DNA of 64,000 bases from Hypnocyclicus thermotrophus. GTDB lineage: Bacteria; Fusobacteriota; Fusobacteriia; Fusobacteriales; Fusobacteriaceae. Each line of letters starts with the position of its first letter. The first letter of the stretch is position 1. The notes beneath the pieces are model-generated. The model saw only the letters and a program-made list of their open reading frames with translations, was not told the origin of the DNA and ran no database searches. Both the position numbers and the translations under genes were made by a program. Shown here piece after piece: positions 30,753 through 59,005 of the stretch. The stretch lies in the NCBI RefSeq assembly GCF_004365575.1, contig NZ_SOBG01000004.1, forward strand, positions 186,001 to 250,000, read 5' to 3'.

Positions 30753-30786
30753 TAAAAAAACAAGAGGTAAATCCTCTTGTTTTTTA
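30753..30786. terminator. Terminator of the arginine operon
   Basis: CAAGAGG pairs with CCTCTTG, with A and T runs on both sides that extend the stem. It includes the argB stop codon and lies before truA. Confidence 0.82.
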
Positions 30787-31656
30787 CTTAACTATCATTG
30801 TTCCTATTCCTTCTTTTGTAAATATTTCTAATAAAAGAGAATGTTCTATTTTACCATTGATTATATGTACTTTACCGGCACCTTTATCAAGTGCATTTAA
30901 ACAAGCAGATATTTTTGGCAACATTCCACCTACTATTATTTTATTATTTATTAATTTTTCTACTTCTTCTTCAGTTACTTTATTTATTAAAGAACCTTTA
31001 TCATCTATATCTCTCATTATTCCCATTACATCAGTTACAAATATAAATTTATCTGCTTTTAATGCTCCTGCGACTTCACCTGCCACATAGTCAGCGTTTA
31101 TATTATACGTAGTCCCTTCTTCATCAGATCCAACTGGACATACTACAGGAATATATCCTTTTTCTATTAAAGTATTTACTATATCAATATTTATTTTCTT
31201 TACCTTTCCTACATATCCTATATCAATTTTTTCTCCATTTTTTTCTATATATTTTTTTTCAGCTAATATAAGATTACTATCTTTTCCACTAAGACCTATT
31301 GCTTTCCCACCATTTTTATTTATTATTGCTACAATATCTTTATTTACTTTTCCAGCTAAAACCATTTCTACTAATTCGACTGTTTCAATATCTGTTACTC
31401 TATTTCCTTCAATGAATTCTACTTTCTTATTTACTTTTTTTAATATCTCATTTATTGCAGGTCCTCCTCCATGAACTACTACCGGATTCATTCCTACATA
31501 TTTCATTAAAACTATATCTCTAATAAAATCTTGTTTTAATTTTTCATCTGTCATTGCACTACCACCATATTTTATTACAATAGTTTTTCCTGAAAACTCT
31601 TTTATATATGGCATAGCCTCTAATAAAATATTAGCTTTTTCTATTATTTTTTCCAT
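30784..31656 (-). CDS. argB: Acetylglutamate kinase
   Basis: Phosphorylates N-acetylglutamate, the second step of arginine synthesis. About 290 residues of the amino-acid kinase fold: VIKYGGSAM near the start, VVHGGGPAINE, and KISACLNALDKGAGKVHII near the end. I chose ATG at 31656 after GGGGGA; the TTG at 31668 is four codons upstream and overlaps that ribosome site. It is the last gene of the arginine run, followed by a terminator. In many species this enzyme is feedback-inhibited by arginine. Confidence 0.95.
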   Translation of the reverse strand: MEKIIEKANILLEAMPYIKEFSGKTIVIKYGGSAMTDEKLKQDFIRDIVLMKYVGMNPVVVHGGGPAINEILKKVNKKVEFIEGNRVTDIETVELVEMVLAGKVNKDIVAIINKNGGKAIGLSGKDSNLILAEKKYIEKNGEKIDIGYVGKVKKINIDIVNTLIEKGYIPVVCPVGSDEEGTTYNINADYVAGEVAGALKADKFIFVTDVMGIMRDIDDKGSLINKVTEEEVEKLINNKIIVGGMLPKISACLNALDKGAGKVHIINGKIEHSLLLEIFTKEGIGTMIVK

Positions 31657-31712
31657 ATATTCCCCCAATATATTTTATTAATTTTTATACACTTTATTTA
31701 ATTTGATTTATC

Positions 31713-34700
31713 TTACATTTCCAAGTATTCTTTTACAGTATAATAATTTTTATTTTCTGTTGCTTCATATACTTTTAAGTAAAGTTCTGCTGTTTCTATT
31801 GCGGTAAATAAAGCTATTTTATTTTCTGCAGCTTTTCTACGTAATTTAAATCCAAATGTCTTAGTATTGTTTCCAAATGTAGGTATATTTATTATTAATT
31901 CTATCTTTTTTTCTTTTAATTTATTTGAAATATCTTCTTTGTCAAGCTCTATTATATCATAAAATTCTTTAAGATATTTATATGTATTTCCACTACTATA
32001 TATTTTAAAACCTTTATTTATGTATTTTTTTACAATTTCTTTTCCTTTTTCTTTACTAATATCACTAAATGATACATATACTTTTTTATTTTCTATTTTT
32101 CCTACTCCACATGCTTTAAAACCTTTATATATAGCGTTTTCTAGTTTTTTATCAATTGCTAATATCTCACCTGTAGATTTCATTTCTGGTCCTAAAAAAA
32201 TATCTACATCTGCTAATTTTTCTGTAGAAAACACCGGAAATTTTAAAGAATAAAACTCTTTTTCTTTGGCAAGCCCTGTTCCGTATTTCATATTTTTTAA
32301 TTTATCTCCAAGCATAATATCTACAGCTATTTTTACCATAGGAATTCCAGTAACTTTACTTAATATTGGTACTGTTCTACTTGCTCTAGGATTTACTTCT
32401 ATTATGTATAACTCATTTTCATAATATACATATTGTATATTTATCAATCCTTTGGTTTTTAAATTTATAGCTATTTTTCTAGTAGTTTCTACTAATTTAT
32501 CTTTCAATTCATTTGATAAAGTAATTGGGGGATATGCTGATATACTATCTCCTGAATGTATACCTGTTTTTTCTATATGTTCCATAATTCCAGGTATAAG
32601 AACATCTTCACCGTCAGATATAGCATCTACTTCAATTTCTGTTCCATATAAATATTTATCTACAAGTATAGATACTGCATCTAATTTTTTAGCATCTTCA
32701 AAATATTCTACTAACTCCTTATCAGTATTTATAACCTTCATAGCTCTACCACCTATTACATAAGATGGCCTAACTATTACTGGATACCCTATTTTTTCTA
32801 TCAGTTTTCTTGCTTCATCTATTGTAGATACCGCATCTCCAATAGGGCTTTTTATCTTAAGATTTTCTAAAAATTCTCTAAATTTTTCTCTATCTTCTGC
32901 TAAATCTATTGAGTTAAAATCACTACCAAGTATTTTTATTCCTGATTTTTCAAGTCGTTCTGTAAGATTTATTGAAGTTTGTCCTCCAAATTGTACAATT
33001 ACACCTTCTGGATTTTCTTCTCTTACTATATTAATTACATCATCTATATATAATGATTCAAAATATAGTTTGTCAGATGTATCAAAATCTGTACTTACTG
33101 TTTCAGGATTATTGTTTATAATTATTGCTTCATATCCTCTTTCTTTGGCTGCCCATATAGCATGTACAGAGCAATAATCAAACTCTATTCCTTGCCCTAT
33201 TCTTATTGGTCCAGAACCTATTATTATTATTTTTTTATTATTCGTAATTATATTTTCATCTGTACTTTCATAACAAGAATAATAATAAGGAGTTACTGCT
33301 TCAAATTCTCCACTACACGTATCAACCATTTTATAGGTTGGATATAAATTTGATTCTTTTCTTATATTATCTAATTCTTTTTTTGTTATTTTAGATAGTC
33401 TGATTATTTCATCATCTACAAATCCTATTTTCTCTGCTTTTTTTATATATTTTATATTTTTAGGATTTTCTTCTAATTTTTTTTCTAAATCTATTATATT
33501 ATGAATTCCTTTTAAAAACCATCTATCAATTTTAGTGTAGTTAAAAATATCTTCTATTTTATATTTTCTTCTGAAAAGTTCTGCAATAGCAAATATTCTA
33601 TCACTATTATTTGTAACTAATTCATTTATAAGTTTTTTATCGCTTTTTTCTTTTAATCCGCTATAATTAAGTCCTGTATAACCACCTTCTATACTACTTA
33701 TAGCTTTCATAAGAGCCCCTTCAAAGGTTCTATCTATTGCCATAACTTCTCCTGTAGCTTTCATTTGAGTAGAAAGCGATTTACTTGCTGTTTTAAATTT
33801 ATCAAAAGGCCATTTAGGTAACTTTAAAACTATATAATCAATAGCTGGTTCAAAAAATGCACTTGATTTTTTAGTGACACTATTTTTTAATTCATCCAAG
33901 CTATATCCGAGAGCTATTTTGGCAGCTATTTTGGCTATTGGATATCCTGTAGCTTTTGATGCAAGTGCAGAAGAACGGCTTACTCGCGGATTTACTTCTA
34001 TTACAATATATTCATAAGAATTTGGATTTAATGCAAACTGTACATTACATCCTCCTTCTATATCTAATGCCGATACTATTTTAAATGATGATTCTCTAAG
34101 CATTTGATATTCTTTATTTGATAAAGTTTGAGAAGGTGCCACAACTATACTATCACCTGTATGTATTCCCACTGGATCTAAATTTTCCATATTACATACA
34201 GTTATACAGTTCCCTTTTTTATCTCTCATTACTTCGTATTCTATCTCTTTCCAGCCAGCTACACTTTGTTCCACAAGTACTTGATGAATAGGACTTAGCT
34301 TTAATGCTCTTTCGCATATTTCTATAAATTCTTTTTCATTACTTGCTATTCCTCCACCTGTTCCGCCAAGTGTATAAGCAGGACGAAGTATTATTGGGTA
34401 TCCTATTTCTTTTGTGAATTTTATTCCTTCCTCAAGCTTATGGATAATTTTACTTTTAGCTATAGGTTCTCCTATTTTTTCTAAAAGCTCTTTAAATTCT
34501 TCTCTATCTTCTGCTTTTTTTATAGCTTCTATATTTATTCCTAATAATTCTACTCCATATTTATCAAGTATTCCTTTGTCATATAATTTCATTGCTAACG
34601 TAAGAGCTGTTTGCCCTCCAAAACCAGCTAAAATACCATCTGGTTTTTCTTTTATTATTATTTTCTCTATTACATCTGTCGTTAATGGTTCTATATATAC

Positions 34701-34874
34701 TTTATCTGCTATATTTTCATCTGTCATTATTGTTGCAGGATTACTATTTATAAGTATTACTTCTATCCCTTCTTCTTTTATTGCTTTACATGCTTGCGTC
34801 CCAGAATAATCAAATTCTGCTGCTTGTCCTATTATAATAGGCCCAGAACCAATTAATATTACTTTTTTTATCAT
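31713..34874 (-). CDS. carB: Carbamoyl-phosphate synthase large chain
   Basis: 1053 residues, the ATP- and ammonia-using subunit that makes carbamoyl phosphate for arginine and pyrimidines. Two homologous ATP-grasp halves are seen, beginning LIGSGPIIIGQAAEFDYSG and IIGSGPIRIGQGIEFDYC, each with NPRVSRSSAL or NPRASRTVP motifs, and a C-terminal MGS-like allosteric domain (about 930-1050). It starts three bases after carA. The surrounding arg genes suggest arginine-linked control. Confidence 0.96.
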   Translation of the reverse strand: MIKKVILIGSGPIIIGQAAEFDYSGTQACKAIKEEGIEVILINSNPATIMTDENIADKVYIEPLTTDVIEKIIIKEKPDGILAGFGGQTALTLAMKLYDKGILDKYGVELLGINIEAIKKAEDREEFKELLEKIGEPIAKSKIIHKLEEGIKFTKEIGYPIILRPAYTLGGTGGGIASNEKEFIEICERALKLSPIHQVLVEQSVAGWKEIEYEVMRDKKGNCITVCNMENLDPVGIHTGDSIVVAPSQTLSNKEYQMLRESSFKIVSALDIEGGCNVQFALNPNSYEYIVIEVNPRVSRSSALASKATGYPIAKIAAKIALGYSLDELKNSVTKKSSAFFEPAIDYIVLKLPKWPFDKFKTASKSLSTQMKATGEVMAIDRTFEGALMKAISSIEGGYTGLNYSGLKEKSDKKLINELVTNNSDRIFAIAELFRRKYKIEDIFNYTKIDRWFLKGIHNIIDLEKKLEENPKNIKYIKKAEKIGFVDDEIIRLSKITKKELDNIRKESNLYPTYKMVDTCSGEFEAVTPYYYSCYESTDENIITNNKKIIIIGSGPIRIGQGIEFDYCSVHAIWAAKERGYEAIIINNNPETVSTDFDTSDKLYFESLYIDDVINIVREENPEGVIVQFGGQTSINLTERLEKSGIKILGSDFNSIDLAEDREKFREFLENLKIKSPIGDAVSTIDEARKLIEKIGYPVIVRPSYVIGGRAMKVINTDKELVEYFEDAKKLDAVSILVDKYLYGTEIEVDAISDGEDVLIPGIMEHIEKTGIHSGDSISAYPPITLSNELKDKLVETTRKIAINLKTKGLINIQYVYYENELYIIEVNPRASRTVPILSKVTGIPMVKIAVDIMLGDKLKNMKYGTGLAKEKEFYSLKFPVFSTEKLADVDIFLGPEMKSTGEILAIDKKLENAIYKGFKACGVGKIENKKVYVSFSDISKEKGKEIVKKYINKGFKIYSSGNTYKYLKEFYDIIELDKEDISNKLKEKKIELIINIPTFGNNTKTFGFKLRRKAAENKIALFTAIETAELYLKVYEATENKNYYTVKEYLEM

Positions 34875-34877
34875 AAC

Positions 34878-35948
34878 TTACTCCCCTCTCACTAATGTTA
34901 AAAATTCATCAAATAAATATTCTGTATCATGAGGTCCAGGACATGCCTCTGGATGAAATTGAACAGAAAATATTGGATAATCTTTATGACGAATTCCTTC
35001 TACTGTATCATCATTAAGATTTCTAAAAGCTACTTCAAATCCAGTATTTTCTAAACTTTTTTCATCTACTGCATATCCATGGTTTTGAGAAGTTATAAAA
35101 GATCTATTTTTTTTATAATCAATTACACCGTGATTTCCACCACGATGTCCAAATTTCATTTTATATGTATCTGCTCCAGCAGCTAAAGATATTATTTGGT
35201 TTCCCATACAAATCCCAAAAATTGGAAGTTTATCAAATAAATTTTTAATGCACGCTATTGCTTTTATAGCATATTTGGGATCTCCTGGTCCATTACTAAC
35301 TAATAGTCCATCTACTTTATGTGCTAAAATTTCTTCTGCTTTTGTTCCATATGGAAAAATCTTTATATTAATATCTCTTTTCTTTAAATTATCTAAAATA
35401 TTATTTTTTAATCCTAAATCAAGTACTCCTATTGTCTCTTTATTTCCTTTTATTTCTATTATCTCTTTTACTCCTACTTCTGTCATACTACTTTCTATAT
35501 TTAAAGGTTTAGAAAATAATTCTTTTAACTCTTTTTCATCTAATTTTTTCGGAGAAATAATTGAATTCATAACTCCTATATCTCTTATTTTTATTGTAAG
35601 TGACCTAGTATCAATATTACCTAAAATTGTAAGATTTTTCTGTTTTGCAAACTCTTCTAAAGAATCTTTGTTCATAAAATTGCTAGGTGTTTTTTCTAAA
35701 TTTTTTACTATTAGACCAGAAGCATAAACATCTTGTGATTCATTATACATATCATTTGTTCCATAATTTCCAATAAATGGATAGGTAAGTATAACTATTT
35801 GTTTTGCATATGACGGATCTGTTAAAATTTCTTGATAGCCTGTCATAGATGTATTAAAAACTAACTCTCCATATTTTATATTTTCTTCACCGTACAAATT
35901 TCCTTCATAATAACTACCGTCTGATAGATATAAATATCCTTTTTTCAA
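34878..35948 (-). CDS. carA: Carbamoyl-phosphate synthase small chain
   Basis: The glutaminase subunit, about 356 residues. N-terminal GYLYLSDGSYYEG and MTGYQEILTDPSYA are family marks; the C-terminal class I amidotransferase has catalytic Cys in FGICMGNQ and His-Glu in VQFHPEACPGP. The start is uncertain: TTG at 35948 sits seven bases after GGGGGG, while an ATG at 35963 overlaps this site and lacks a good one of its own. I favour TTG. It precedes carB by three bases. Confidence 0.92.
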   Translation of the reverse strand: MKKGYLYLSDGSYYEGNLYGEENIKYGELVFNTSMTGYQEILTDPSYAKQIVILTYPFIGNYGTNDMYNESQDVYASGLIVKNLEKTPSNFMNKDSLEEFAKQKNLTILGNIDTRSLTIKIRDIGVMNSIISPKKLDEKELKELFSKPLNIESSMTEVGVKEIIEIKGNKETIGVLDLGLKNNILDNLKKRDINIKIFPYGTKAEEILAHKVDGLLVSNGPGDPKYAIKAIACIKNLFDKLPIFGICMGNQIISLAAGADTYKMKFGHRGGNHGVIDYKKNRSFITSQNHGYAVDEKSLENTGFEVAFRNLNDDTVEGIRHKDYPIFSVQFHPEACPGPHDTEYLFDEFLTLVRGE

Positions 35949-36011
35949 TATTCTTCCCCCCATTATAGTCTTTAAACTATATTTTAAAAAAGTTTTAAAT
36001 CATTATGATTT

Positions 36012-37229
36012 TTAACTTCTATAAGAGCCATTTATTTTTACATAATCATAAGTAAGATCACATCCCCAAGCAGTTGCTGAATGCTCTCCAGTTTTAAAAT
36101 CAGCTATTACTATTACTTCTTTTTCTAAAAGTATCTCTTTTACTTTGTCTTCATTAAAAATAATAGGCAATCCATTTTCAAATACTTTTATTTCACCTTT
36201 TCCTGATTTGAAATACAAATCTAAAGTATTGGGAGTAAATTGTACTCCTGAGTATCCCATAGCACATAATATTCTTCCCCAATTTGCATCTGCTCCAAAA
36301 AATGCTGCTTTTGTTAAATTAGAAGTAATTATACTTTTAGCTAAAATTTTGGCTTCTTCTTCATTTTTATAATTTACTACATTCACTTCTAATAATTTAG
36401 TTGCACCTTCACCATCTGCAGCTATCATTTTAGCAAGCTCTATATTTACATATTCAAGAGCTTCTTTAAATTTATTAAAATTTTTATCTTCTTTATCAAT
36501 AAGTTTATTCTTAGCTTTTCTACTTGACAAAATTATACAAGTATCATTTGTACTTGTATCTCCGTCAACAGATATCATATTAAAAGATTTATCTATTGTA
36601 GGCTTAAATGCTTTTTCTAACATATCTTTTGTTATATTTATATCTGTAACTATAAATCCAAGCATTGTAGCCATATTTGGATGTATCATTCCAGAGCCTT
36701 TAGCTATTCCAGCTATTTTTACTTTTTTACCATCTAATTCTAATTCTACACCTATTTCTTTAGGCTTTGTATCTGTTGTCATTATAGCTCTTGCTATACT
36801 ATGTTTATCATTATGATTTTGAACTTCAGTACATATTTTTTCAATTCCACTTAATATTTTATCCATAGGAAGTTGTACTCCTATTATCCCCGTCGAATTC
36901 ACAAGCACTTCTTCACTTTCTATCTCTAAATGTTTTGCTATATTTTTAGCTATAATTTCTGTATTTTGATAGCCAACTTCTCCTGTGCATGCATTTGCAT
37001 TTCCACTATTTATTATAACAGCTTTTATATTTTCATTTTCTATATTTTTCATATTATATATAACAGGAGCAGCTTTTATAACATTTTGTGTAAAAACTCC
37101 AGAAGCTATTGCACCATTTTTAGCATATATTAAAGCTAAATTTTCTCTTTTCTCTTTTCGAAGTTTAGCATCTATTCCAATAGATTTAAAACCTTCTACA
37201 TCATTTATTGTTATATCTTTTTTTATCAT
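36012..37229 (-). CDS. argJ: Glutamate N-acetyltransferase ArgJ
   Basis: Recycles the acetyl group from N-acetylornithine to glutamate, and in some species also uses acetyl-CoA. 405 residues. The autocleavage site is in AKGSGMIHPNMATMLGF, with Thr188 as the new N-terminal nucleophile of the beta chain. I chose ATG at 37229, which follows GGGGGA; the upstream ATGs would overlap the preceding GNAT gene. Bi- or monofunctionality cannot be told; no argA is in view. Confidence 0.94.
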   Translation of the reverse strand: MIKKDITINDVEGFKSIGIDAKLRKEKRENLALIYAKNGAIASGVFTQNVIKAAPVIYNMKNIENENIKAVIINSGNANACTGEVGYQNTEIIAKNIAKHLEIESEEVLVNSTGIIGVQLPMDKILSGIEKICTEVQNHNDKHSIARAIMTTDTKPKEIGVELELDGKKVKIAGIAKGSGMIHPNMATMLGFIVTDINITKDMLEKAFKPTIDKSFNMISVDGDTSTNDTCIILSSRKAKNKLIDKEDKNFNKFKEALEYVNIELAKMIAADGEGATKLLEVNVVNYKNEEEAKILAKSIITSNLTKAAFFGADANWGRILCAMGYSGVQFTPNTLDLYFKSGKGEIKVFENGLPIIFNEDKVKEILLEKEVIVIADFKTGEHSATAWGCDLTYDYVKINGSYRS

Positions 37230-37245
37230 GATATTCCCCCAATTT

Positions 37246-37680
37246 TTAGACATCATTAAATATTTCTAAAAAATTATTTTTATTTATGAGCTCATGAAAA
37301 CCAAATTTTTTATAAAATTCTTTCGCATTAGTTGTATATAATAAAAATCTTCTCAGATTTTTTAATTCTTTATATTCTACTACTGATTTTATTAAAAATT
37401 CACCTAATTTTTGTCCTCTATAAGCTTCATCTATATATACATCACATAAATATGCAAAAGTAGCATAGTCTGTCACAACTCTAGCTATTCCAATATGTTT
37501 ATCGTTATCTAACAAAGAAAAACATAAAGAATTTTTAAATGATTTTTCTATTAACTCTTTACTTCTTTTATTTGCCCAGTGTGCATTCGAAAGATGATCA
37601 TACACTGATTGAATATTTATTTTATTTGGATCTGTTGTTACTAAAAAATTATCTTTCTTTACTTCATAGTACTTTTGCAT
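37246..37680 (-). CDS. GNAT acetyltransferase inside the arginine operon
   Basis: 144 residues. The acetyl-CoA turn is YRGQKLGEFL near residue 93, with GIARVVTDYATFAYLCDVYI before it and FYKKFGF near the end. This pattern matches a widespread GNAT family of unknown acceptor. Placement between argC and argJ recalls short N-acetylglutamate synthases found in some arg operons, but sequence alone does not support that strongly. ATG follows GGAGG; gaps are 12 and 16 bases, so it is clearly in the operon. Confidence 0.8.
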   Translation of the reverse strand: MQKYYEVKKDNFLVTTDPNKINIQSVYDHLSNAHWANKRSKELIEKSFKNSLCFSLLDNDKHIGIARVVTDYATFAYLCDVYIDEAYRGQKLGEFLIKSVVEYKELKNLRRFLLYTTNAKEFYKKFGFHELINKNNFLEIFNDV

Positions 37681-37692
37681 ATTTATCCTCCA

Positions 37693-38733
37693 TTAAATAT
37701 ATATAGATATATTTTCAATCCCCATATTCTCTTCTAAATCAAATAATACATTCATATTTTGTATTGCTTGTCCTGCTGCACCTTTAACTATATTATCTAT
37801 TACTGAAGTAATAATCACTCTATTTGTTCTATTATCTATATTTATAGTTATATCACAATAATTTGTTCTTTTAACATCTTTTGTTTGCACATCTATTTCT
37901 CTTATTCTAACAAATTTATTTTCTTTATAAAACTCTTTATATATCTCTAGTAACTCTTGTTTAGTTTTATTAATCTTTAAATTTGCATAAATAGTCGAAA
38001 GAATTCCTCTACTCATTGGAATAAGTGTTGGAGTAAATGTAATTTTTATATCTTTATTTGCTAATTTCGACATTTCTTGTTCTATTTCTGCAGTATGTCT
38101 ATGAGAAGCTACTTTATAAGCTTTTACATTTTCTGTTGCTTCACAGTAAAGCTTATAAATGTCAATTCCTCTACCCGCTCCAGATATTCCAGATTTTGCA
38201 TCTACTATTATATTTTTTGTATCAATAAATTTCTTTTTTAAAAGTGGAGCTATTCCTAATAGTGTAGCTGTTGGATAACATCCAGGATTTGCTATTACTT
38301 TACTATTTTTTATACTTTCTTTATCTTTTAATTCTACTAATGCATATTCAGATTCTTTTAAAAGGGATTCATATGGATGCTCTATTTGATACCACTTCTC
38401 AAATTCTTCTTTGCTATCAAGTCTATAATCAGCTCCAAGATCTATTACTTTAACCCCTTTATCAACTGCTTTTTTTACGAGTTCTATTGATTTACCATGT
38501 GGTAATGCTAAAAATAATACATCTATTTCATCATATTTTTCTAATGCTTCTTCAGTAGACACTAAAACGTTATCTATTATTCCATAATAATTAGTATATA
38601 CATCAGAATATTTTTTACCACTATATGAATTCGAACTTAAAAATATTATCTCTACTTCTTTATGATATTTTAATAGATAGACAAGTTGTTGTCCTGCATA
38701 TCCAGTTGCTCCTATTACTCCTGCTTTTATCAT
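37693..38733 (-). CDS. argC: N-acetyl-gamma-glutamyl-phosphate reductase
   Basis: Third step of arginine synthesis, NADPH-dependent. 346 residues, with the Rossmann start IGATGYAGQQL, catalytic Cys152 in NPGCYPTA, and DAKSGISGAGRG, all diagnostic. ATG follows AAGGGGG. The 124-base gap to argG upstream is the longest inside the arginine operon; I see only a weak possible stem there. Confidence 0.95.
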   Translation of the reverse strand: MIKAGVIGATGYAGQQLVYLLKYHKEVEIIFLSSNSYSGKKYSDVYTNYYGIIDNVLVSTEEALEKYDEIDVLFLALPHGKSIELVKKAVDKGVKVIDLGADYRLDSKEEFEKWYQIEHPYESLLKESEYALVELKDKESIKNSKVIANPGCYPTATLLGIAPLLKKKFIDTKNIIVDAKSGISGAGRGIDIYKLYCEATENVKAYKVASHRHTAEIEQEMSKLANKDIKITFTPTLIPMSRGILSTIYANLKINKTKQELLEIYKEFYKENKFVRIREIDVQTKDVKRTNYCDITINIDNRTNRVIITSVIDNIVKGAAGQAIQNMNVLFDLEENMGIENISIYI

Positions 38734-38857
38734 TTTTCCCCCTTATTAATTTTTTAAAATACTTTTTAGATTTATTTTGAAACCACAGAATACACATTAA
38801 ATTTTTTATTAATTCCACGGTTCCCTTAAAAATATTTTCCCATACTTTCTAATTTGT

Positions 38858-40066
38858 TTATTTTGAATTTTTACTTTTAATTAAACTCTGTACTTTTGTT
38901 GGTAATGAAAATAATTTTATAAATCCTTCTGCATCTTTATGATCATACATATCACTAGCTCCAAATGATGATATTCCTTCGTCATATAATGCATATTTAG
39001 ATATTCTTGCTGCTGGTTTTATATTTCCTTTATATAATTTTAATTTTACTTTTCCACTTACATTTTCCATTATGCTATCAATAAAAGCATCTAATCCATC
39101 TTTTAATGGAGTAAACCATAATCCACTATAAGTTAAATCACCATATTTTTGAGCTACTGTTTTTTTGAATGACATTGTATCTTTATCAAGACAAATTGAT
39201 TCTAATTCTTGAAGAGCTGCATAAAGCAATGTTCCTCCTGGTGTTTCATATATTCCTCTTGATTTCATTCCTACAATTCTATTTTCAATAATATCAATAA
39301 CTCCAATTCCGTGTTCTCCAGCTATTTTATTTAATTTTGTAACTAAAGATACTGCATCTAATTTTTCATTATTTACAGCTACTGGAACTCCCTTTTTAAA
39401 CTCAATTTCTACATATTCTGCTGTATCTTTTGCTTGTTCTAAAGGTTTTACCATCATATATATTTCATCTTTATGTTCATTTTCTAAAAATTCAATATCT
39501 CCTCCCTCATGACTTATATGCCATAAATTTTGGTCTCTTGAATATATTTTTTCTTTTGTTACAGTTAATTTTATTCCATGAGCATTAGCATAATCTATTG
39601 CATCTTCTCTTGATTTTATATCCCATATTCTCCAAGGTGCAATTATTTTAATACTTTGGTCAATAGCCGCTATCCCAGTTTCAAATCTAACTTGGTCATT
39701 TCCTTTTCCTGTACACCCATGACATATATATTTTGCTCCCTCTTTATGAGCTACTTCTACAAGTTTTTTTGCTATTAATGGTCTTGCATGAGACGTTCCT
39801 AATAAATATTTATGCTCATATACAGCTCCGGCTTTTAAAGCTTTAAATGCATATTCTGTTAAAAATTCCTCTTTACAGTCTTCTACATATACTTTTGATG
39901 CACCAGATTCTATTGCTTTTATTTTTACTTGTTCCATATCATCATCTTGTCCTACATCTACACAACAAGCAATTACCTCTAAATCGTAGTTTTCTTTTAA
40001 CCATGGTATAGTAATCGATGTATCTAATCCTCCTGAATATGCTAATACAACTTTATCTTTCTTCAT
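38858..40066 (-). CDS. argG: Argininosuccinate synthase
   Basis: Joins citrulline and aspartate with ATP. 402 residues. The ATP PP-loop motif is AYSGGLDTS at residues 9-17, followed by the family segments [13 protein letters not shown] and [14 protein letters not shown] at 40066 follows GGAGGG. It is 27 bases downstream of argH in the same operon and precedes argC. Confidence 0.96.
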
Positions 40067-40093
40067 AAATAATCCCTCCTATAAATCTTTATT

Positions 40094-41467
40094 TTAATTT
40101 TTTAAAAATTTTTCTGCCTCTTTTAATTGTCTTTCGACTTCACTATACGATGTACCACCATAAGAATTTCTATCTTTTATACAAGTTTCTATTTTTGCTT
40201 TTTCTATAATATCTTCTTCAAATTTTTCATTAAATTTTTTATATTCATCAAAAGTAAGTTCGTTCAAGTATTTATTATTTTCTTCACAGTAAGCTACAAG
40301 TTTTCCTACAACTTCATGCGCCTCTCTAAAAGGTATTCCTTTTTTTGCTAAATAATCAGCTATATCTGTTGCATTTATAAATCCTTTATAAATATCTTTT
40401 ATCATATTTTCTTTATTTACTTTTATTGTTGCAAGCATCTCTTTAAAAATTTCTAATGATATTTTTATATTATCTATTGAATCAAATACTCCTTCTTTAT
40501 CTTCTTGTGTATCTTTATTATATGCTAATGGCAATCCTTTCATTACAGTAAGTATAGAGATAAGATTTCCATAAATTCTACCTGTTTTTCCTCTTACAAG
40601 TTCAGCTATATCTGGATTTTTCTTTTGTGGCATAATAGATGAACCTGTAGAATACGCATCATCAAGATTTATAAATCCAAATTCACTAGTAGCCCAAAGT
40701 ATAATTTCTTCTGAAAATCTTGACATATGCATAGCTATCATAGCTATTACAAAATTTGTTTCTGCAATAAAATCTCTATCACTTACACTGTCTAAACTAT
40801 TATTTGTTACTTTACCAAATCCAAGCTCTTTTGCAACAAAATGTCTATCTATATTATATGTAGTTCCTGCAAGTGCCGATGCTCCAAGTGGCATTACATC
40901 TACTCTTTTATAAAGATCGTTTAATCTATCATAATCTCTTTTTAACATTTCAAAATATGCTAATAAATGATGTGCAAAAAGTATAGGTTGTGCTCTTTGA
41001 AGATGGGTATATCCAGGTAATATAACTTCTTTATTATTTTTTGCAACTTCTTTTATTACTTTTAATAAATCAATTATTATTTCTTTTATATTTTTTATTT
41101 CTTTTTTTAAATAAAGTCTTATATCAAGAGCAACTTGATCATTTCTACTTCTAGCTGTATGCAATTTTTTCCCTGTATCACCTATTTTTTGTATAAGTCT
41201 TTTTTCTATTGCCATATGTATATCTTCATCAGCTAATGAAAATTCTAATTCATCATTATCTATTTCTAACTCTATTTCTTTTAATGCTTTTTCTATTTTT
41301 TCTTGCTCTTCTTTAGATATAATATTTTGCTTAGCAAGCATTTTTGAATGCGCTATGCTTCCCATAATATCTTCTTTATACATTCTTATATCAAAAGTTA
41401 TTGATGCATTAAATTTTTCTAGTAATTTTGAACTTTCTTTATTAAATCTTCCTCCCCAAAGCTTCAT
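40094..41467 (-). CDS. argH: Argininosuccinate lyase
   Basis: Last step of arginine synthesis, releasing arginine and fumarate. 457 residues, beginning MKLWGGRF, with SRNDQVALD, the conserved lyase signature SSIMPQKKNPD near residue 280 and DKEGVFDS. ATG at 41467 follows AGGGG; the open frame extends 31 codons upstream, but that part lacks family similarity. It is the first gene of the arginine operon, behind a palindrome at 41521-41553 and a TATAAT at 41495-41500. Confidence 0.96.
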   Translation of the reverse strand: MKLWGGRFNKESSKLLEKFNASITFDIRMYKEDIMGSIAHSKMLAKQNIISKEEQEKIEKALKEIELEIDNDELEFSLADEDIHMAIEKRLIQKIGDTGKKLHTARSRNDQVALDIRLYLKKEIKNIKEIIIDLLKVIKEVAKNNKEVILPGYTHLQRAQPILFAHHLLAYFEMLKRDYDRLNDLYKRVDVMPLGASALAGTTYNIDRHFVAKELGFGKVTNNSLDSVSDRDFIAETNFVIAMIAMHMSRFSEEIILWATSEFGFINLDDAYSTGSSIMPQKKNPDIAELVRGKTGRIYGNLISILTVMKGLPLAYNKDTQEDKEGVFDSIDNIKISLEIFKEMLATIKVNKENMIKDIYKGFINATDIADYLAKKGIPFREAHEVVGKLVAYCEENNKYLNELTFDEYKKFNEKFEEDIIEKAKIETCIKDRNSYGGTSYSEVERQLKEAEKFLKN

Positions 41468-41494
41468 ATTTTCCCCTTTCAGTTTTCCTTTTTT

Positions 41495-41553
41495 ATTATA
41501 GGACTTTTTTGTTTGGCTTAAAAATATACACTGTAAAAAACAGTGCATATTTT
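41495..41553 (-). promoter_or_regulatory. Arginine operon upstream region: -10 box and palindrome
   Basis: TATAAT at 41495-41500 lies 28 bases before the argH ATG, with only a weak T-rich -35. Immediately upstream a ten-pair inverted repeat (ATATGCACTG / CAGTGTATAT on the minus strand) covers 41521-41553 and is followed by a short T run. It could be an operator for an arginine repressor, or the terminator of the upstream transporter genes. Confidence 0.5.
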
Positions 41554-41646
41554 TTGTCACTATTTTTTATTTTCAAAGTCTATTTATTTTTTCCTTCTTT
41601 TAAATTATACCTAGACCTCATCTTTTTTCCTTTCAAAACATTTTAA

Positions 41647-42372
41647 TTATTTACTAAAATATTTATCATAAAGTTTTTTATATTCTCCATTTGCTTTTAT
41701 TGTTTCAAATGCTTTATTTAATTTTTCTAATAATTCTTTATCTTCTTTTCTTAAAGCTATTGCATATTCTTCTGTTACAGATACTCCTTCAATTACTTTT
41801 ATCCCTTTATTTTGTTTCACATAATTTTTTGCTGGTTCTGAATCAAGTACTACAGCATCTATTTTATCCGCTTTTAAATCTAGTATAGCAGCATAAGAAG
41901 CATTATATTTTTTTACATTTACATCTTTTATATCACTTACTATTAAATCTCCTGTAGTTCCAATCATTGCTCCTACTTTTTTACCTACTAAATCATCAAA
42001 TGATTTTATATTATTTTGATTTTCTCTAACTATTATTACTTGACTTGTAGAATAATAACTTTTTGTAAAATTTACAGATTTTTTTCTTTCTTCTGTAGCT
42101 GTCATTCCAGATACTACTAAATCTATTTTTTTGGTTTGTAATGCTGGTAATAATCCATCGAAACTCATATCTTTTACTTCATATTTAATTCCTGCTTCTT
42201 TTGTTAATAATTCAATTAGTTCTATATCAAATCCAATTATTTTATCTCCTTCTCGATATTCAAATGGTGGAAATTCCGCATTCGTTCCTACTACATAAGT
42301 TTTTTCTTTATTTCCTCCACATCCCACTAAAAATATTGTTGCTAATATTACTAAAGTTAAAATTTTCTTCAT
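41647..42372 (-). CDS. Polar amino-acid ABC transporter, substrate-binding lipoprotein
   Basis: 241 residues. The lipoprotein signal ends in FLVGC with Cys18 as the acylated residue, followed by a family 3 solute-binding domain: VVGTNAEFPPFEYREG, IGFDIELIELL, GMTATEERKKSVNFT and the hinge DAVVLDSEPA. It delivers substrate to the permease-ATPase encoded upstream. The sequence type is common for basic or polar amino acids; closeness to the arginine operon makes arginine or ornithine a reasonable guess, not proven. Confidence 0.88.
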   Translation of the reverse strand: MKKILTLVILATIFLVGCGGNKEKTYVVGTNAEFPPFEYREGDKIIGFDIELIELLTKEAGIKYEVKDMSFDGLLPALQTKKIDLVVSGMTATEERKKSVNFTKSYYSTSQVIIVRENQNNIKSFDDLVGKKVGAMIGTTGDLIVSDIKDVNVKKYNASYAAILDLKADKIDAVVLDSEPAKNYVKQNKGIKVIEGVSVTEEYAIALRKEDKELLEKLNKAFETIKANGEYKKLYDKYFSK

Positions 42373-42436: not shown

Positions 42437-43168
42437 CTAATGGTTTAAAACTTTTGATAAAAACTCTTTTGTTCTTTCGTGACTAGGATTTTCAAATATT
42501 TTTTTAGGTTCATCATCTTCTAGTATATTCCCTCTATCCATAAAAAATACTCTACTAGCTACATTTTTAGCAAATCCCATTTCATGAGTCACAACTAGCA
42601 TTGTCATTCCCTCTTTTACTAAAGTTTTCATTACTTCAAGTACTTCATTTACTACTTCAGGATCAAGTGCGCTTGTAGGTTCATCAAATAATAATATACT
42701 TGGTTTCATTGCAAGTGCTCTAGCTATAGCTATCCTTTGTTTTTGCCCCCCTGATAAACTATTAGGATAAACATACGCTTTTTCTTTTAATCCTACTTTT
42801 TCAAGAAGTTCAAATGCTATTATTTCTGCTTCTTTTTGTGTAAAATTTTTAATTTTTATAGGCCCTAATGTAAGATTTTCAAGCACTGTTTTATGCGGAA
42901 ACAAATTAAAATGTTGAAAAACCATTCCTATTTTTTCTTCTCTTACTTTATTTATATCTGTCTTTTTATCTAAAATATCTATTCCATCAATATAAATATG
43001 ACCATTTGTTGGTTCTTCTAAAAGATTTAAGCATCTTAAAAATGTTGATTTCCCACTTCCAGAAGGTCCAATTATTGCTACAACTTCTCCCTTTTTTATT
43101 TCTTTATTTATTCCTTTTAATACTTCTAATTCTCCATAATATTTATGTAAATCAACAATTTTAATCAC
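42437..43168 (-). CDS. Polar amino-acid ABC transporter, ATPase
   Basis: 243 residues. Walker [12 protein letters not shown]-loop [10 protein letters not shown], signature LSGGQKQR, Walker [14 protein letters not shown] and switch His in VVTHEMGFA match the GlnQ/HisP group. It powers the permease encoded just upstream, with which it overlaps by 8 bases (43161-43168), so translation is coupled. Confidence 0.93.
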
Positions 43169-43883
43169 TTTTTCTCATTCCCTTCTCTACAACTCTCATA
43201 AATTTAGTAAATAAACTAGTAAGTACCAAATATATAAATCCAACTGCTAATAATGGCTCTACCCCTCTATAAGTTTGACTTGTAATAATATTAGCCGATC
43301 TAAGTAAATCAACTCCTCCAATAAATCCTACTATAGATGTTTCTTTAAGAAGTGTTATAAATTCACTTACAAGTGTTGGTAATATTTTTTTTATTGCTTG
43401 CGGAATGATAATTTCTTTCATTGCTAATCTATAAGGCATACCTAAAGCTTTTGCTGCTTCCATTTGCCCTTTATCTAATCCTTGAATTCCTGCTCTTATT
43501 ATTTCAGCTACATAAGCTGCACTATTAAGTCCAAAAGCAAGACCAGCTACTATAAAAACAGGTGTATCTCTAAGCGCTCCTACAAATACAATATTAGCTA
43601 ATATCATCAATTGTACGACTGCTGGAGTTCCTCTAACTAAATCTACATAAAGTAATGCAAACAATTCTAAAGGATTAAATTTTTTTATTTCTTCATTTAA
43701 ATGTTCAAATTTTTTTAAAGGATAAAAACGAGAAAGTCTAAATAATGCAAGTATTATACCTACTACAAGTCCAATAAAAGCTGCAAAAATCGTAACTCCT
43801 ACTGAAAAACCCAATCCTTTTATAATATACATATATCTTCCATCATTAATAAAGATATTTTTTAATGTTTCTAAATAACTCAT
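43161..43883 (-). CDS. Polar amino-acid ABC transporter, permease
   Basis: 240 residues with about five membrane segments and the cytoplasmic EAA loop [18 protein letters not shown] that docks the ATPase. The [12 protein letters not shown] segment is typical of the His/Glu/Gln/Arg permease family. It is the first gene of the transporter operon, with GGAGGTAG before its ATG, preceded by a leader of about 330 bases that contains terminators and a small reading frame. Confidence 0.92.
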
Positions 43884-43922: not shown

Positions 43923-43943
43923 AAAAAAAGCCTATAATAGGCT
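43923..43943 (-). terminator. Terminator in the transporter leader
   Basis: AGCCTA pairs with TAGGCT around a three-base loop and is followed by seven T on the minus strand, 40 bases before the permease start. Its first arm also pairs with an upstream antiterminator segment. Confidence 0.75.
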
Positions 43944-43980
43944 ATAGAGATTTAAAATTATACAAAATCTATAGACTATT
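43936..43980 (-). promoter_or_regulatory. Antiterminator competing with the leader terminator
   Basis: On the RNA, AAUAGUCUAUAG (43980-43969) can pair with CUAUAGCCUAUU (43947-43936): five pairs, one mismatch, six pairs. The second arm includes the first arm of the terminator at 43923-43943, so the two structures exclude each other. The first arm begins four bases after the stop of the leader reading frame. Confidence 0.6.
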
Positions 43981-43984
43981 CCTA

Positions 43985-44047
43985 TTAATAAATTTTATTT
44001 AGTTTTATAATATTTTTTTCATTCCTAAAATTCCTTAAATTTTTCAT
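43985..44047 (-). CDS. Leader peptide candidate, 20 codons
   Basis: ATG at 44047 is preceded by GAGGTG at ideal distance, and the frame ends in TAA at 43985. The peptide has two arginines, both coded by AGG at codons 5 and 8, plus five asparagines and four lysines, which are common in this AT-rich genome. It lies just before the antiterminator/terminator pair. A ribosome finishing at the stop would cover the first antiterminator arm, while one stalled at the AGG codons would leave it free. A regulatory peptide is the likely role. Confidence 0.6.
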   Translation of the reverse strand: MKNLRNFRNEKNIIKLNKIY

Positions 44048-44216
44048 TTTAATTCACCTCGAATAATTTATAAATAAAAAATACCCCTGTTAATACCCCT
44101 TTATTGGAGAAAGTTATATTTATTATTTTCTCCCCATAAAGGTATACTACCAAGGGTAAGTTATACTCACAAGAGAAATTCTTTCTCCTGATCTTTGCAC
44201 AATTTTAATTTAGCTA

Positions 44217-44245
44217 ATTGTAACAAACAATCAAAAGATTGTCAA
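44217..44245 (-). promoter_or_regulatory. Promoter of the amino-acid transporter operon
   Basis: Perfect TTGACA at 44240-44245, 17 bases, TACAAT at 44217-44222 on the minus strand. It lies after the terminator of the nucleotidase gene and about 335 bases before the permease start. Confidence 0.85.
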
Positions 44246-44350: not shown

Positions 44351-47300
44351 TTAATTATCTAATGGTAATCTTAATGTTTGATCAATGTAAATTAAATCAG
44401 GATTTTCTAATCTGTTTATTAGCGCTAAATCTTTTACAATACTCAAAATTTCTTTATCACTTAAAGTATTGTCTGCAGCTTTAATTATATTCCATAAACA
44501 ATCTCCTGGTTCTGCTTTATATTCTGTTACTGGTATCATTATTCCTTCTATATTTGGTACTTTTACCTCTTTTTCTTTTTCTATTGCTTCTTCTAATACA
44601 TCTCTTATTTGAACATATGTATCTACTACTTCTTTTGCTCCTTTAAAGTTGTATTTATCTCCTCCACCTAATATAAAATCATTTGTTGTTAATGTATACC
44701 ATTTATCATCTTCTACTATTGTTCCATCTTCTAATGCCAACATTTCTACTCTATGTTCATATTCTTTATCTGGATTATACACTACATATAATCCTGCAAA
44801 TTGTCCATCTGTCATGTAATCTGCATCTATTCCATGATCTATTAACTCTTTTAAGTGTTTTCCACTTACTTTCATTGTTACTAATTGATTATCAAATGGC
44901 ATTACTTCATAAAGGTCACCCATTGTTATGTCTCCTTTATATAGACTTCTTCTTAGTCCTCCTCCATTTGTTAATCCTATTTGTGTTCCTGTTGCTTTTC
45001 TCATTATGTCTGCTGCCCAATAACCTAATGGTGTTAAATTTTTTGCACTTCTATCATGTATTAAATCTTCATTTAGTTTTCCTACTACTTTTCCTAAAAT
45101 TGGTTTTAATTTTTCTTCTCTCATTTCATATCTTAATTTCGCTTCTTTTGATACTGGTATATCTTCTTTATGTTTATATGCTAAATCTACATATGCATTT
45201 ACTGTTAATTTGTTTTCTTTATCAAACATTAGTTCTATTCTTCCTAAGGCTCTTCCATATTTATATGCTTGTACTACTGGTATTCCATTTATTTTTCCTG
45301 ATACTATTTTATGACTATGTCCTGTCACTATTGCATCTATTCCTTTTACTTTTGATAATCTTTCTATTTCATCTCCTGTTATTTCTTTTGTATCTCTATC
45401 TTGGACTGTTGGTACATGTGTTAATGCTATTATTGCATCTGGTTTCCCTTCTGATGCTTTCCCTGACATTAAATATTCTACCCATTCTTTAGCTGCTTTT
45501 TCTACTGGTATAAATTTTAAATCTTTTACATTTTCTACTTTTGTTTGATAAGCTGTTGATTCTGTTGATAAACCTATAAATGCTATTTTTTTACCTGCTA
45601 TTTCTACTATTCTATATGGCATTGCCCATGATACTGGTTTATTTGTTGCTTTATCATATATGTTTGATGCTAAAAAGGCTACTCCTTTATCTTCCCATTC
45701 TTTTATTTTTTCTACTCCCCAGTCAAATTCATGATTCCCTATTGCTGAACCTACTAAATCAAGTAATTCAAACATATCATTTACTGGTGCTCCTACTGTT
45801 AAGTTTGATATTGCTGTCCCTTGATAGTTATCTCCTGCTGATACTACTAATACATTTGGATTTTCTTTTTTTAATGCATCTACATATCCTACTATTTTAG
45901 CCATTCCTAGCTCTTTTCTACCTTCTTTTACATGACCATGAAAATCATTAAATGTTACTATATCAATTTTTACATCTCTAGGAAAATCATATATATTTAA
46001 TGATTTTACATTTAATGTTCTTCCATCTTTCGATCTAGGTATTTGAATTTCTCCCGATCTTACTTTATCTAATATTTCTTCTTTTCCTGGATAATCAAGT
46101 TTAATTCCTACAATTTTCCAGTTGTTTTCAACTTTAGGAGATAGTTTTCCTCCCATTTCTTTTGTATATTTAATTATAAGATCTCTTATTCTTCCTGCAT
46201 CTTGCATTTCTGCATAAGAATCAAAATATTTATCTTCTGGTTTTACAAGCCCTAATGATAATAATGTACCAAATCTATAGTTATTTACTGCTAGTTTATA
46301 AGTTTTATTTTTATCAAATGGTTTACCATTAAATATTACATTTTTTATTCTATTTCCAGGTTCTTGAGATAAATCTATTTCATAATTTACTCCATAGAAC
46401 ATATCGTAATTATATCCTCTAACATTTTCATTAAATGAAATAGTTATATCTCCCTCTTTCCAAGTATTATAGTAAGAAGCTGACCATTCCATATATTTTA
46501 ATAAATTTTCACCTGTTATATTCACTCCTACTAATGTATTTGGATATTTATAGATATATGCTACATCTTTTTTCTTAAATGGTCCTTTTTTAAGATTTGA
46601 ACCAAAATTAAATAATGCTGCTGATGAAATATCTGCATTTGCATATTTTTTTTGTACTCTATTTATTAAATTAATTACTGCTGTATCTTGAAGTTGAGCA
46701 GTTGGCATAGTTGTTACTTTATCAGCTTTTGTTATATAATCTACACCTTTTATAAAATCATCTGTTACTTCACCAATAACTGTATTTGCATCAGCTAATG
46801 ATTTTTCATGTACATATTTAAATTTTTCAAGCATTTCTTTATCAGGTTCTACTTCTTTTGTAGATAGATTAGCTGCTTCTACACCCTTTACTTCCCAATT
46901 TCCATCAGTTTTTACTAATTTTATTCCTGCTACTGCAAGTGATGAACCATATTTACCAGGTTCTATTATTTTTACTCCATTTACATCTTCTACATAAGTA
47001 GCATGTTCATGCCCACCAAATATTACTGAAAACTCTGGAAAAGCTTTTGCTAAATCATATATTCCAGCTCCTCCATATTCTCCTTTTCTTCCTAAATGAA
47101 ACGCTCCTATTAATACATCAAAATTATCTCCTATTTCATCTAAAGTTGCTTGAAGACTTCTTTTTGTTTCTTGAAAAATCAAATTTTTAAAATGTTCAGG
47201 AGTTGAAGCTTCCCATTTTGGTATATGTGGTGGAGTAATTCCTATTACTACTACTCTAGCACCATTTACAATAAACTCTTGATATGGTTGTACAAAATAA

Positions 47301-47932
47301 GAACCATCATCTTTATTAAAAATATTTGCAGAAATTACACTACCTTTAAAACTATTAATATTTTTTATAAGAAAATCTTTACCAAAATTAAATTCATGAT
47401 TTCCTATAGTCCAAGCATCTGTTCCCATAAAATTCATTGCTTCTACCATAGGATGTGGATTCATATCATTAAATAATTCTGCACTATTATCTTGTACTGT
47501 ATCTCCATTATCTAATAATATCATATTTGGATTTTCTTTTCTTAATTGTTTTACTAAAGTATATATTTTAGCATATCCCGCATCTTTATCCTCCGAATCG
47601 ATTGCATAATCATACGGATAAATTCTTCCATGCATATCAGAAGTTAAAGCAATTACAACTTCTTGTTCATTTAAATCTTCTGTTCCTTTTATTACTGGTG
47701 GATTATTTTTATTTGTTACTACTAAATCTTCCACTTTTCTTTCCTCTGCTTTAGTTTCTTCTACTTTTGCAGATTCTGTTACTTTAATAGCTTCTTCTGC
47801 TTTTGGAGTTTCTACCACTGTTTCTGTTTTTGTAGGAACTTCATTTACTACTTCTTTTTTTACAGTGTTACTATTACACGAAACTATTGTGATTAACAAT
47901 GTAAAAAGGATAAATAGTTTTTTTAATTGCAT
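44351..47932 (-). CDS. Double-domain 5'-nucleotidase/phosphodiesterase lipoprotein with LysM
   Basis: About 1193 residues. ATG at 47932 follows AGGAGGGG; upstream codons are discarded. A lipoprotein signal ends in ITIVSC, and a Glu/Lys/Val-rich linker follows. First enzyme unit (about 90-620): SDMHGR, DNGDTVQD, GNHEFNFG and GGHEHA, resembling cyclic-nucleotide phosphodiesterase/3'-nucleotidases. Second unit (about 640-1130): FNDFHGH, SAGDNYQGT, GNHEFDWG and GHSHK, a 5'-nucleotidase. A LysM-like murein-binding segment (PGDCLWNII) ends the protein. The second unit is identical to the next gene upstream over 1456 bases. It probably salvages extracellular nucleotides. Confidence 0.88.
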   Translation of the reverse strand: MQLKKLFILFTLLITIVSCNSNTVKKEVVNEVPTKTETVVETPKAEEAIKVTESAKVEETKAEERKVEDLVVTNKNNPPVIKGTEDLNEQEVVIALTSDMHGRIYPYDYAIDSEDKDAGYAKIYTLVKQLRKENPNMILLDNGDTVQDNSAELFNDMNPHPMVEAMNFMGTDAWTIGNHEFNFGKDFLIKNINSFKGSVISANIFNKDDGSYFVQPYQEFIVNGARVVVIGITPPHIPKWEASTPEHFKNLIFQETKRSLQATLDEIGDNFDVLIGAFHLGRKGEYGGAGIYDLAKAFPEFSVIFGGHEHATYVEDVNGVKIIEPGKYGSSLAVAGIKLVKTDGNWEVKGVEAANLSTKEVEPDKEMLEKFKYVHEKSLADANTVIGEVTDDFIKGVDYITKADKVTTMPTAQLQDTAVINLINRVQKKYANADISSAALFNFGSNLKKGPFKKKDVAYIYKYPNTLVGVNITGENLLKYMEWSASYYNTWKEGDITISFNENVRGYNYDMFYGVNYEIDLSQEPGNRIKNVIFNGKPFDKNKTYKLAVNNYRFGTLLSLGLVKPEDKYFDSYAEMQDAGRIRDLIIKYTKEMGGKLSPKVENNWKIVGIKLDYPGKEEILDKVRSGEIQIPRSKDGRTLNVKSLNIYDFPRDVKIDIVTFNDFHGHVKEGRKELGMAKIVGYVDALKKENPNVLVVSAGDNYQGTAISNLTVGAPVNDMFELLDLVGSAIGNHEFDWGVEKIKEWEDKGVAFLASNIYDKATNKPVSWAMPYRIVEIAGKKIAFIGLSTESTAYQTKVENVKDLKFIPVEKAAKEWVEYLMSGKASEGKPDAIIALTHVPTVQDRDTKEITGDEIERLSKVKGIDAIVTGHSHKIVSGKINGIPVVQAYKYGRALGRIELMFDKENKLTVNAYVDLAYKHKEDIPVSKEAKLRYEMREEKLKPILGKVVGKLNEDLIHDRSAKNLTPLGYWAADIMRKATGTQIGLTNGGGLRRSLYKGDITMGDLYEVMPFDNQLVTMKVSGKHLKELIDHGIDADYMTDGQFAGLYVVYNPDKEYEHRVEMLALEDGTIVEDDKWYTLTTNDFILGGGDKYNFKGAKEVVDTYVQIRDVLEEAIEKEKEVKVPNIEGIMIPVTEYKAEPGDCLWNIIKAADNTLSDKEILSIVKDLALINRLENPDLIYIDQTLRLPLDN
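44515..45970 (-). repeat. 1456-bp direct repeat, copy 1
   Basis: From about 44515 to 45970 the sequence matches 48227-49682 at a constant offset of 3712; I found no difference in the lines compared, and the encoded proteins are identical. It covers the second enzyme unit of the double nucleotidase and the start of its tail. Outside these limits the two genes diverge at once. Confidence 0.93.
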
Positions 47933-47989
47933 AATTTCCCCTCCTATTTTTATTTGTTTTTCAAATAAATAATTTAACACTACATTATA

Positions 47990-58914: not shown

Positions 58915-58943
58915 AATATAAACCGACTAAATACTTTCTTCAA
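58915..58943 (-). promoter_or_regulatory. Internal promoter before rpsM
   Basis: TTGAAG at 58938-58943, 17 bases, TATATT at 58915-58920 on the minus strand, in the 134-base gap between rpmJ and rpsM. It would give separate transcription of the alpha operon part. Confidence 0.55.
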
Positions 58944-59005
58944 CATGCATCTAAAAATATTTTAGATTAAAAAGCTCTACAGCTAAACATGTCTTTACAG
59001 CAAAA

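Follow-up and report, generated by a model that had tools for sequence, protein, structure and literature searches.

Tandem leader elements of an arginine biosynthesis and amino-acid uptake operon in Fusobacteriaceae: a probable transcription attenuator that carries a conserved RNA element

Attenuators of the trp, his and ilv type join an amino-acid-rich mini-ORF to an antiterminator and a terminator that share one arm, with a biosynthetic operon downstream. Arginine codons act as sensors in two described leaders: in the orf34 leader of Salmonella speF the codons AGG CGG sense arginine via ribosome pausing (PMC6386406), and in the rbfL leader of Staphylococcus aureus arginine is sensed by AGA/AGG codons read by a scarce tRNA-Arg(UCU) (PMC13009471). 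An amino-acid-rich leader peptide together with a conserved RNA fold is found in the LEU element of actinobacterial leuA (PMC1262725).

The leader considered here lies in a 64,000-nucleotide stretch of Hypnocyclicus thermotrophus DNA, analysed as a whole (the window), and has counterparts across the Fusobacteriaceae. It shares the listed features of the trp/his/ilv type and differs in being arginine-specific and in carrying an extra conserved RNA element, here called M, as well as tandem terminators (T1 and T2). The speF leader acts through Rho termination, unfolding of the ribosome-binding site and RNase G and governs polyamine synthesis (PMC6386406), whereas the Fusobacteriaceae leaders have intrinsic terminators ahead of arginine genes. 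The rbfL leader works by translational occlusion of the rbf ribosome-binding site, without a terminator and with stalling lowering expression (PMC13009471), unlike the terminator-bearing leader of the window; the LEU element is a pseudoknot whose base stem pairs the leucine codons with the leuA Shine-Dalgarno (SD) sequence (PMC1262725), whereas M is an internal-loop hairpin beside terminators. Leader-peptide attenuation is a known kind of control, and the conserved element M is the new and more interesting part. No description of leader control of arginine genes in Fusobacteriaceae was found in the literature searched, which was mostly non-subscription and is weak evidence on this point, and no report of an arginine attenuator with tandem terminators and a conserved element was found in it. 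We consider the leader to be probably a transcription attenuator in tandem form that serves an operon of arginine synthesis and amino-acid uptake, in which M is likely a second arginine-related control.

Table 1. Positions of the leader modules, the operon genes and further features of the window.
Feature	Coordinates	Strand	Description
Promoter	44217..44245	(-)	TTGACA-17-TACAAT; 11/12 consensus, TG before -10
Element M	44156..44208	(-)	UUGUGC-AAAGAU-[CAGGAGA..UCUCUUG]-UGA-GUAUAA; core about 44202-44161
T1	44072..44158	(-)	Terminator-like hairpin UACCCUUG...CAGGGGUA with U-run; folds; same hairpin in G001
SD of leader peptide 1	44060-44055	(-)	GAGGTG
Leader peptide 1	43985..44047	(-)	MKNLRNFRNEKNIIKLNKIY, then stop; 20 codons; from sequence and comparison with relatives
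AGG codon 5	44035-44033	(-)	In leader peptide 1
AGG codon 8	44026-44024	(-)	In leader peptide 1
Stop of leader peptide 1	43987-43985	(-)	TAA; followed by 4 nt (TAGG), then antiterminator 5' arm
Antiterminator 5' arm	43980-43969	(-)	AATAGTCTATAG; 12 nt; from sequence and fold
Antiterminator 3' arm	43947-43936	(-)	CTATAGCCTATT; overlaps first arm of T2; from sequence and fold
T2	43943-43929; with U-run to 43923	(-)	Intrinsic terminator, AGCCTAT-TAT-AGGCT and U-run
Amino-acid ABC permease	43161..43883	(-)	Polar amino-acid type; first operon gene
Amino-acid ABC ATPase	42437..43168	(-)	
Substrate-binding protein	41647..42372	(-)	Best matches glutamine and Lys/Arg/Orn families, under curated cut-offs
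Leader peptide 2	41580..41621	(-)	MRSRYNLKEGKNK, then stop; second and fourth codons AGG; lies after the binding-protein gene and ahead of argH
Hairpin 3' of leader peptide 2	41520..41551	(-)	Short U-run; weak terminator candidate
argH, argG, argC, GNAT acetyltransferase, argJ, carA, carB, argB	30784..41470	(-)	
argG-argC gap	38840-38770	(-)	Inverted repeat AACCGTGGAAT...GTATTCTGTGGTT, long and imperfect; no U-run
Nucleotidase/phosphoesterase-like ORFs	44351-47980; 48066-49751	(-)	Adjacent; long nearly identical stretch in common
S4-Fusobacteriales leader	58936-59000	(-)	Rfam ribosomal-protein leader, 58 bits; expected family element

The part of the leader next to the operon (module 2) has the layout of an attenuator. 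The initial annotation had described here a 20-codon frame with a ribosome site and AGG at its fifth and eighth codons, a 12-base segment four bases after the stop able to pair with a segment overlapping the first terminator arm, and a terminator 40 bases before the permease start, and all of these are present. The two arms form a duplex of 11 pairs with one U.C mismatch, and T2, ~40 nt upstream of the permease ATG at 43883, is the sole terminator in the 800-nt stretch scanned, where 0.1 is expected. In isolation the antiterminator has a predicted energy of -10.0 kcal/mol and is more stable than T2, at -5.8 kcal/mol. The account was incomplete: it missed the promoter, M and T1 upstream in the same transcript, and leader peptide 2. 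Both strands of the window contain 4 SD-preceded short ORFs with at least two AGG codons, vs 2.75 expected in Markov-shuffled windows; the window mini-ORF taken alone is therefore not beyond chance, and the evidence for it comes from its conservation.

Upstream regions of the orthologous permease were gathered from Fusobacteriaceae locus by locus. An SD-preceded mini-ORF with at least two AGG codons occurs at 28 of the 30 best permease loci and at no fewer than 47 of the ~54 orthologous loci with enough upstream sequence; conservation of the frame in relatives had been chosen beforehand as a point on which the proposal could fail, and on this point it held. Typical peptides begin with MLRNFRIR, MIRRFRIR, MLFRNDRNRV or MKFRNNRIRN. 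Among arginine codons, AGG accounts for 103/147 (70%) in the leaders (41 distinct peptides) vs 28/481 (6%) in the long genes of the window, and arginine makes up 17% of leader codons vs 3% of those in window genes; since the leaders were selected for arginine codons, the arginine density is inflated and the AGG share is affected less.

In G001, a second genome of the same genus, the homologue of leader peptide 1 reads MRNLRNLRKRKKIEN before its stop, with three AGG codons and one AGA, and the antiterminator 3' arm is CTATAGCCTGTT. Arm pairing is kept in this one other genome of the genus, with a change from A-U to G-U. The stop-to-arm distance is 4 nt in the window vs 18 nt in G001, and a mechanism of plain occlusion by the terminating ribosome is therefore not conserved. 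Classical attenuation, as initially proposed, is partly supported; the geometry of the stop relative to the arm does not carry over. Across relatives the stop stands 0-61 nt from the AAAGAU core of M, and several genera have the mini-ORF without M. Equilibrium folding with ribosome positions gave a T2 probability in the window of 0.59-0.70 with a stalled ribosome vs 0.85 with the ribosome at the stop; this small shift is mostly absent in relatives, and for G001 folding predicts a T2 probability close to zero in either state.

The 61 tRNA genes of the genome were all read, and their arginine anticodons are UCU, ACG and UCG only; as there is no CCU tRNA, AGG has to be decoded through wobble pairing with tRNA-Arg(UCU), a tRNA that is encoded by one gene and also reads AGA, the common codon. 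The earlier suggestion of a scarce AGG-reading tRNA is not upheld, as the tRNA in question is the reader of that common codon. The preference for AGG in the leaders may come from slow wobble decoding or from a role in RNA pairing; AGGAUAAGG stands opposite a downstream CCUUAUC in many relatives. The C-terminal domain of ArgR was found in none of the 61 Fusobacteriaceae genomes by a search that was positive in 8 of 14 control genomes.

Behind the leader lies an operon of 11 genes, from 43883 down to 30784, that combines arginine synthesis with an amino-acid importer, in agreement with the arginine operon context initially noted. The products of argH, argG and argC score above NCBIfam cut-offs and the GNAT acetyltransferase was assigned by Pfam; the remaining genes we take, by inspection of their sequences, to be argJ, carA, carB and argB. 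Profile scores of the importer favour glutamine, cystine and Lys/Arg/Orn families, with all equivalog matches below cut-off, and its substrate is not established. Leader peptide 2 is conserved in G001 as MRSRYNFKEEKNK; the U-run of the hairpin that follows it is poor in that genome. Arginine attenuation is well supported by the conservation of the mini-ORF, its AGG share, the lack of ArgR, the arginine operon and this second mini-ORF. Elsewhere in the window, two nucleotidase/phosphoesterase-like ORFs encode a 1209-aa protein and a 561-aa neighbour, most of which is contained in the former; judged by their sequences, the pair seems to have arisen through tandem duplication and fusion not long ago.

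Upstream of the mini-ORF lies module 1, formed by a near-perfect promoter, M and T1, with a predicted transcript start ~160 nt before the mini-ORF. The core consensus of M is G-H-AAAGAU-[stem]-UGAGYAUA, with a 6x3 internal loop that is near-invariant across 43 distinct sequences (columns 13-17 and 80-82 almost invariant) and a variable apical loop. A covariance model was built from a first alignment of 29 sequences, later extended to the 43. All six pairs of the stem show changes on both sides in both sets; in the larger one 97.1% of the cells are paired and the covariation score was reached by 0/500 shuffles, slid controls being far lower. The window copy scores 47.2 bits against the model (E 9.7e-8 in the 47-locus search, 9.8e-7 genome-wide), and a blind fold of the G001 leader gave exactly both M stems and the 6x3 loop. 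No covariance model of Rfam 15 matches M; the Rfam matches obtained were tRNA, the S4-Fusobacteriales leader and an unrelated TPP riboswitch, and a known RNA family was accordingly rejected. A further candidate, the loop sequence AUG-AGY-AUA as a second start codon, was discarded: ATG, GTG or TTG stands at this position in all sequences but one, with no SD and with reading frames of no common length, and the Y is explained by a G-Y pair. In a global fold the 5' strand of M (AAAAUUGUGCAAAGAUC, 44208-44190) pairs over ~16 nt with the T2 antiterminator loop (43970-43951), both on the minus strand, and this pairing can form in G001 too, with GUGC/GCAC kept; as two sequences only are involved and a U-rich strand faces an A-rich one, the modelled pairing is possibly cross-talk or AT-rich chance.

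Matches to M at E<=0.1, some weak single ones included, occur in 34 of the 61 Fusobacteriaceae genomes and 10 of 14 genera, and at E<=0.01 in 32 genomes of the family and 8 genera. Genomes from the other families of the phylum gave no match at E<=0.01, and in a set of 35 loci that carry a homologous permease, almost all of them from groups other than Fusobacteriaceae, the model found nothing. All 47 matches gathered with E below 0.01 stand before arginine-related genes: artQ-like permeases, argC-argJ-carA or argC-argJ-argB, argH, a transporter with argH behind it, or an amino-acid permease. Weak matches near non-arginine genes (E 0.009-0.05 per genome) were treated as noise. Loci L194 and L195, of two related species, have ~30-bit matches upstream of a MarC-like gene that are probably noise as well; L194 also has an aspartokinase and an asd-like dehydrogenase near its weak match.

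At most of these loci the mini-ORF comes first, then M, T1 and T2. M stands immediately behind the promoter and lacks a preceding arginine mini-ORF in the window genus and at loci L179 and L183, and the layout of L179 (promoter, M, terminator, gene) is riboswitch-like. M without an upstream peptide and the peptide without M show that the two modules are separable. L183, in genome G043, appears to have arisen by deletion: the importer genes are gone, apart from what seems to be a C-terminal piece of the binding protein, and the M leader is kept before argH. At L182, L187 and L188 the peptide, M, T1 and T2 are followed by a second AGG mini-ORF and a further hairpin before argC. Downstream of the M-bearing permease of L179, a TPP riboswitch (2237-2336 of that locus) precedes a thiamine-type gene.

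In many loci the helix around M (P1, GGCU...AGCC) overlaps the 5' arm of T1. Pairing of the GGCU type with the T1 arm gave a combined p of 0.004 in a shuffle test on 14 representatives, and a comparison of own with foreign segments by duplex energies was not significant (p 0.32); competition between P1 and T1 in relatives is suggestive. In the window genus no antiterminator or competitor of T1 was found.

Kink-turn motifs, as in T-box, SAM-I and lysine riboswitches, have a 3-nt bulge, tandem G.A/A.G pairs and then U.U between two flanking stems. M resembles them in its AAA bulge, G.A/A.G and U.U between two stems, and the composition of its loop fits a kink-turn, the non-canonical pairs being proposed from the sequences. 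It differs from them in that about half of the sequences would have A.G as the closing pair of the outer stem, in an outer strand GYAUA conserved beyond the needs of pairing and in having no accompanying riboswitch core.

We infer from this anatomy that ribosomes would translate the AGG-rich mini-ORF of module 2 and that, when charged tRNA-Arg(UCU) is short, they would stall on AGG, leaving the 43980-43969 arm free to form the antiterminator, with transcription of the operon as the outcome; with plentiful arginine, translation would continue and T2 would form. Module 1, the kink-turn-like M with the T1 hairpin, would most likely be a second arginine-related control of readthrough, in which M would bind a partner, be it a small molecule, a protein or a tRNA. 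Most relatives have M between the peptide and T1, and there both modules would appear to act on one terminator. If M favours antitermination, arginine has the wrong sign as its ligand, and a partner that rises in starvation, or a protein, is as likely.

The leader peptide could instead be the sole regulator, M being a passive structure that senses nothing, such as a kink-turn lending stability to the antiterminator or setting the pace of RNA polymerase. A compact fold would aid the antiterminator in most relatives, where M sits inside the T1-competing helix, and the genera that keep the peptide without M agree with this. We regard it as unlikely, given that in the window genus, L179 and L183 M follows the promoter without a preceding arginine mini-ORF, and that its near-invariant loop bases exceed the needs of a passive stem.

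An aptamer for arginine (or for ornithine or citrulline) that controls T1 would account for the position of every confident M match before arginine-related genes, for the layout of L179 and for a near-invariant internal loop below a variable apical one. A conserved structured element beside a terminator and before ligand-related genes is what such a riboswitch presents, the switching partner being suggestive only. Against this, ligand binding inside a helix that competes with T1 should favour transcription, the wrong sign for feedback, the core is very small and the window genus offers no switch partner for T1, all of which makes this reading unlikely.

M might also act in the manner of a T-box: the AGA triplet of its loop would bind uncharged tRNA-Arg(UCU) at the anticodon and thereby stabilise the antiterminator. 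The sign would fit induction by starvation, the invariant AAAGAU contains AGA, and tRNA-Arg(UCU) ends in GCCA, matched by the UGGC of many P1 strands. This is very unlikely: the window genus lacks UGGC, as do the clades that have no T1 (UUGACU, UUGCCU), which makes a complement of T1 the better explanation for it, and AGA/UGAG fit sheared pairs. Membership of M in the T-box family was rejected, since Rfam gave no T-box match and UGGN is absent in many loci. A chance origin of the frame in the window, with arms that pair by AT-rich chance, could draw on the 2.75 ORFs of this kind expected in a shuffled window and on the cheapness of pairing at low GC; it is hardly credible, as Arg(AGG)-rich mini-ORFs occupy the same place across the family and the arms are kept in G001.

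The preferred reading remains a tandem attenuator of arginine synthesis and uptake. From its sequence, M appears to be an uncatalogued, strongly conserved RNA structure that stands almost only before arginine genes. More tentatively, and with the odds against it, M may be a natural bacterial riboswitch of the arginine pathway or a sensor of tRNA-Arg, of a new structural class with a kink-turn-like internal loop; a phrase search of the literature for 'arginine riboswitch' returned one passing mention, which makes M a concrete candidate for that question. If this were true, M and the arginine leader peptide would report on free ligand and on tRNA charging within a single leader. The wobble reading of AGG by tRNA-Arg(UCU) makes these leaders a clean case for codon choice in attenuators. 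For the ArgR-less Fusobacteriaceae, AGG mini-ORFs together with an element absent from Rfam offer a family-wide, testable RNA answer to arginine control and, since the family includes human-associated species, the control of arginine uptake is of wider interest.
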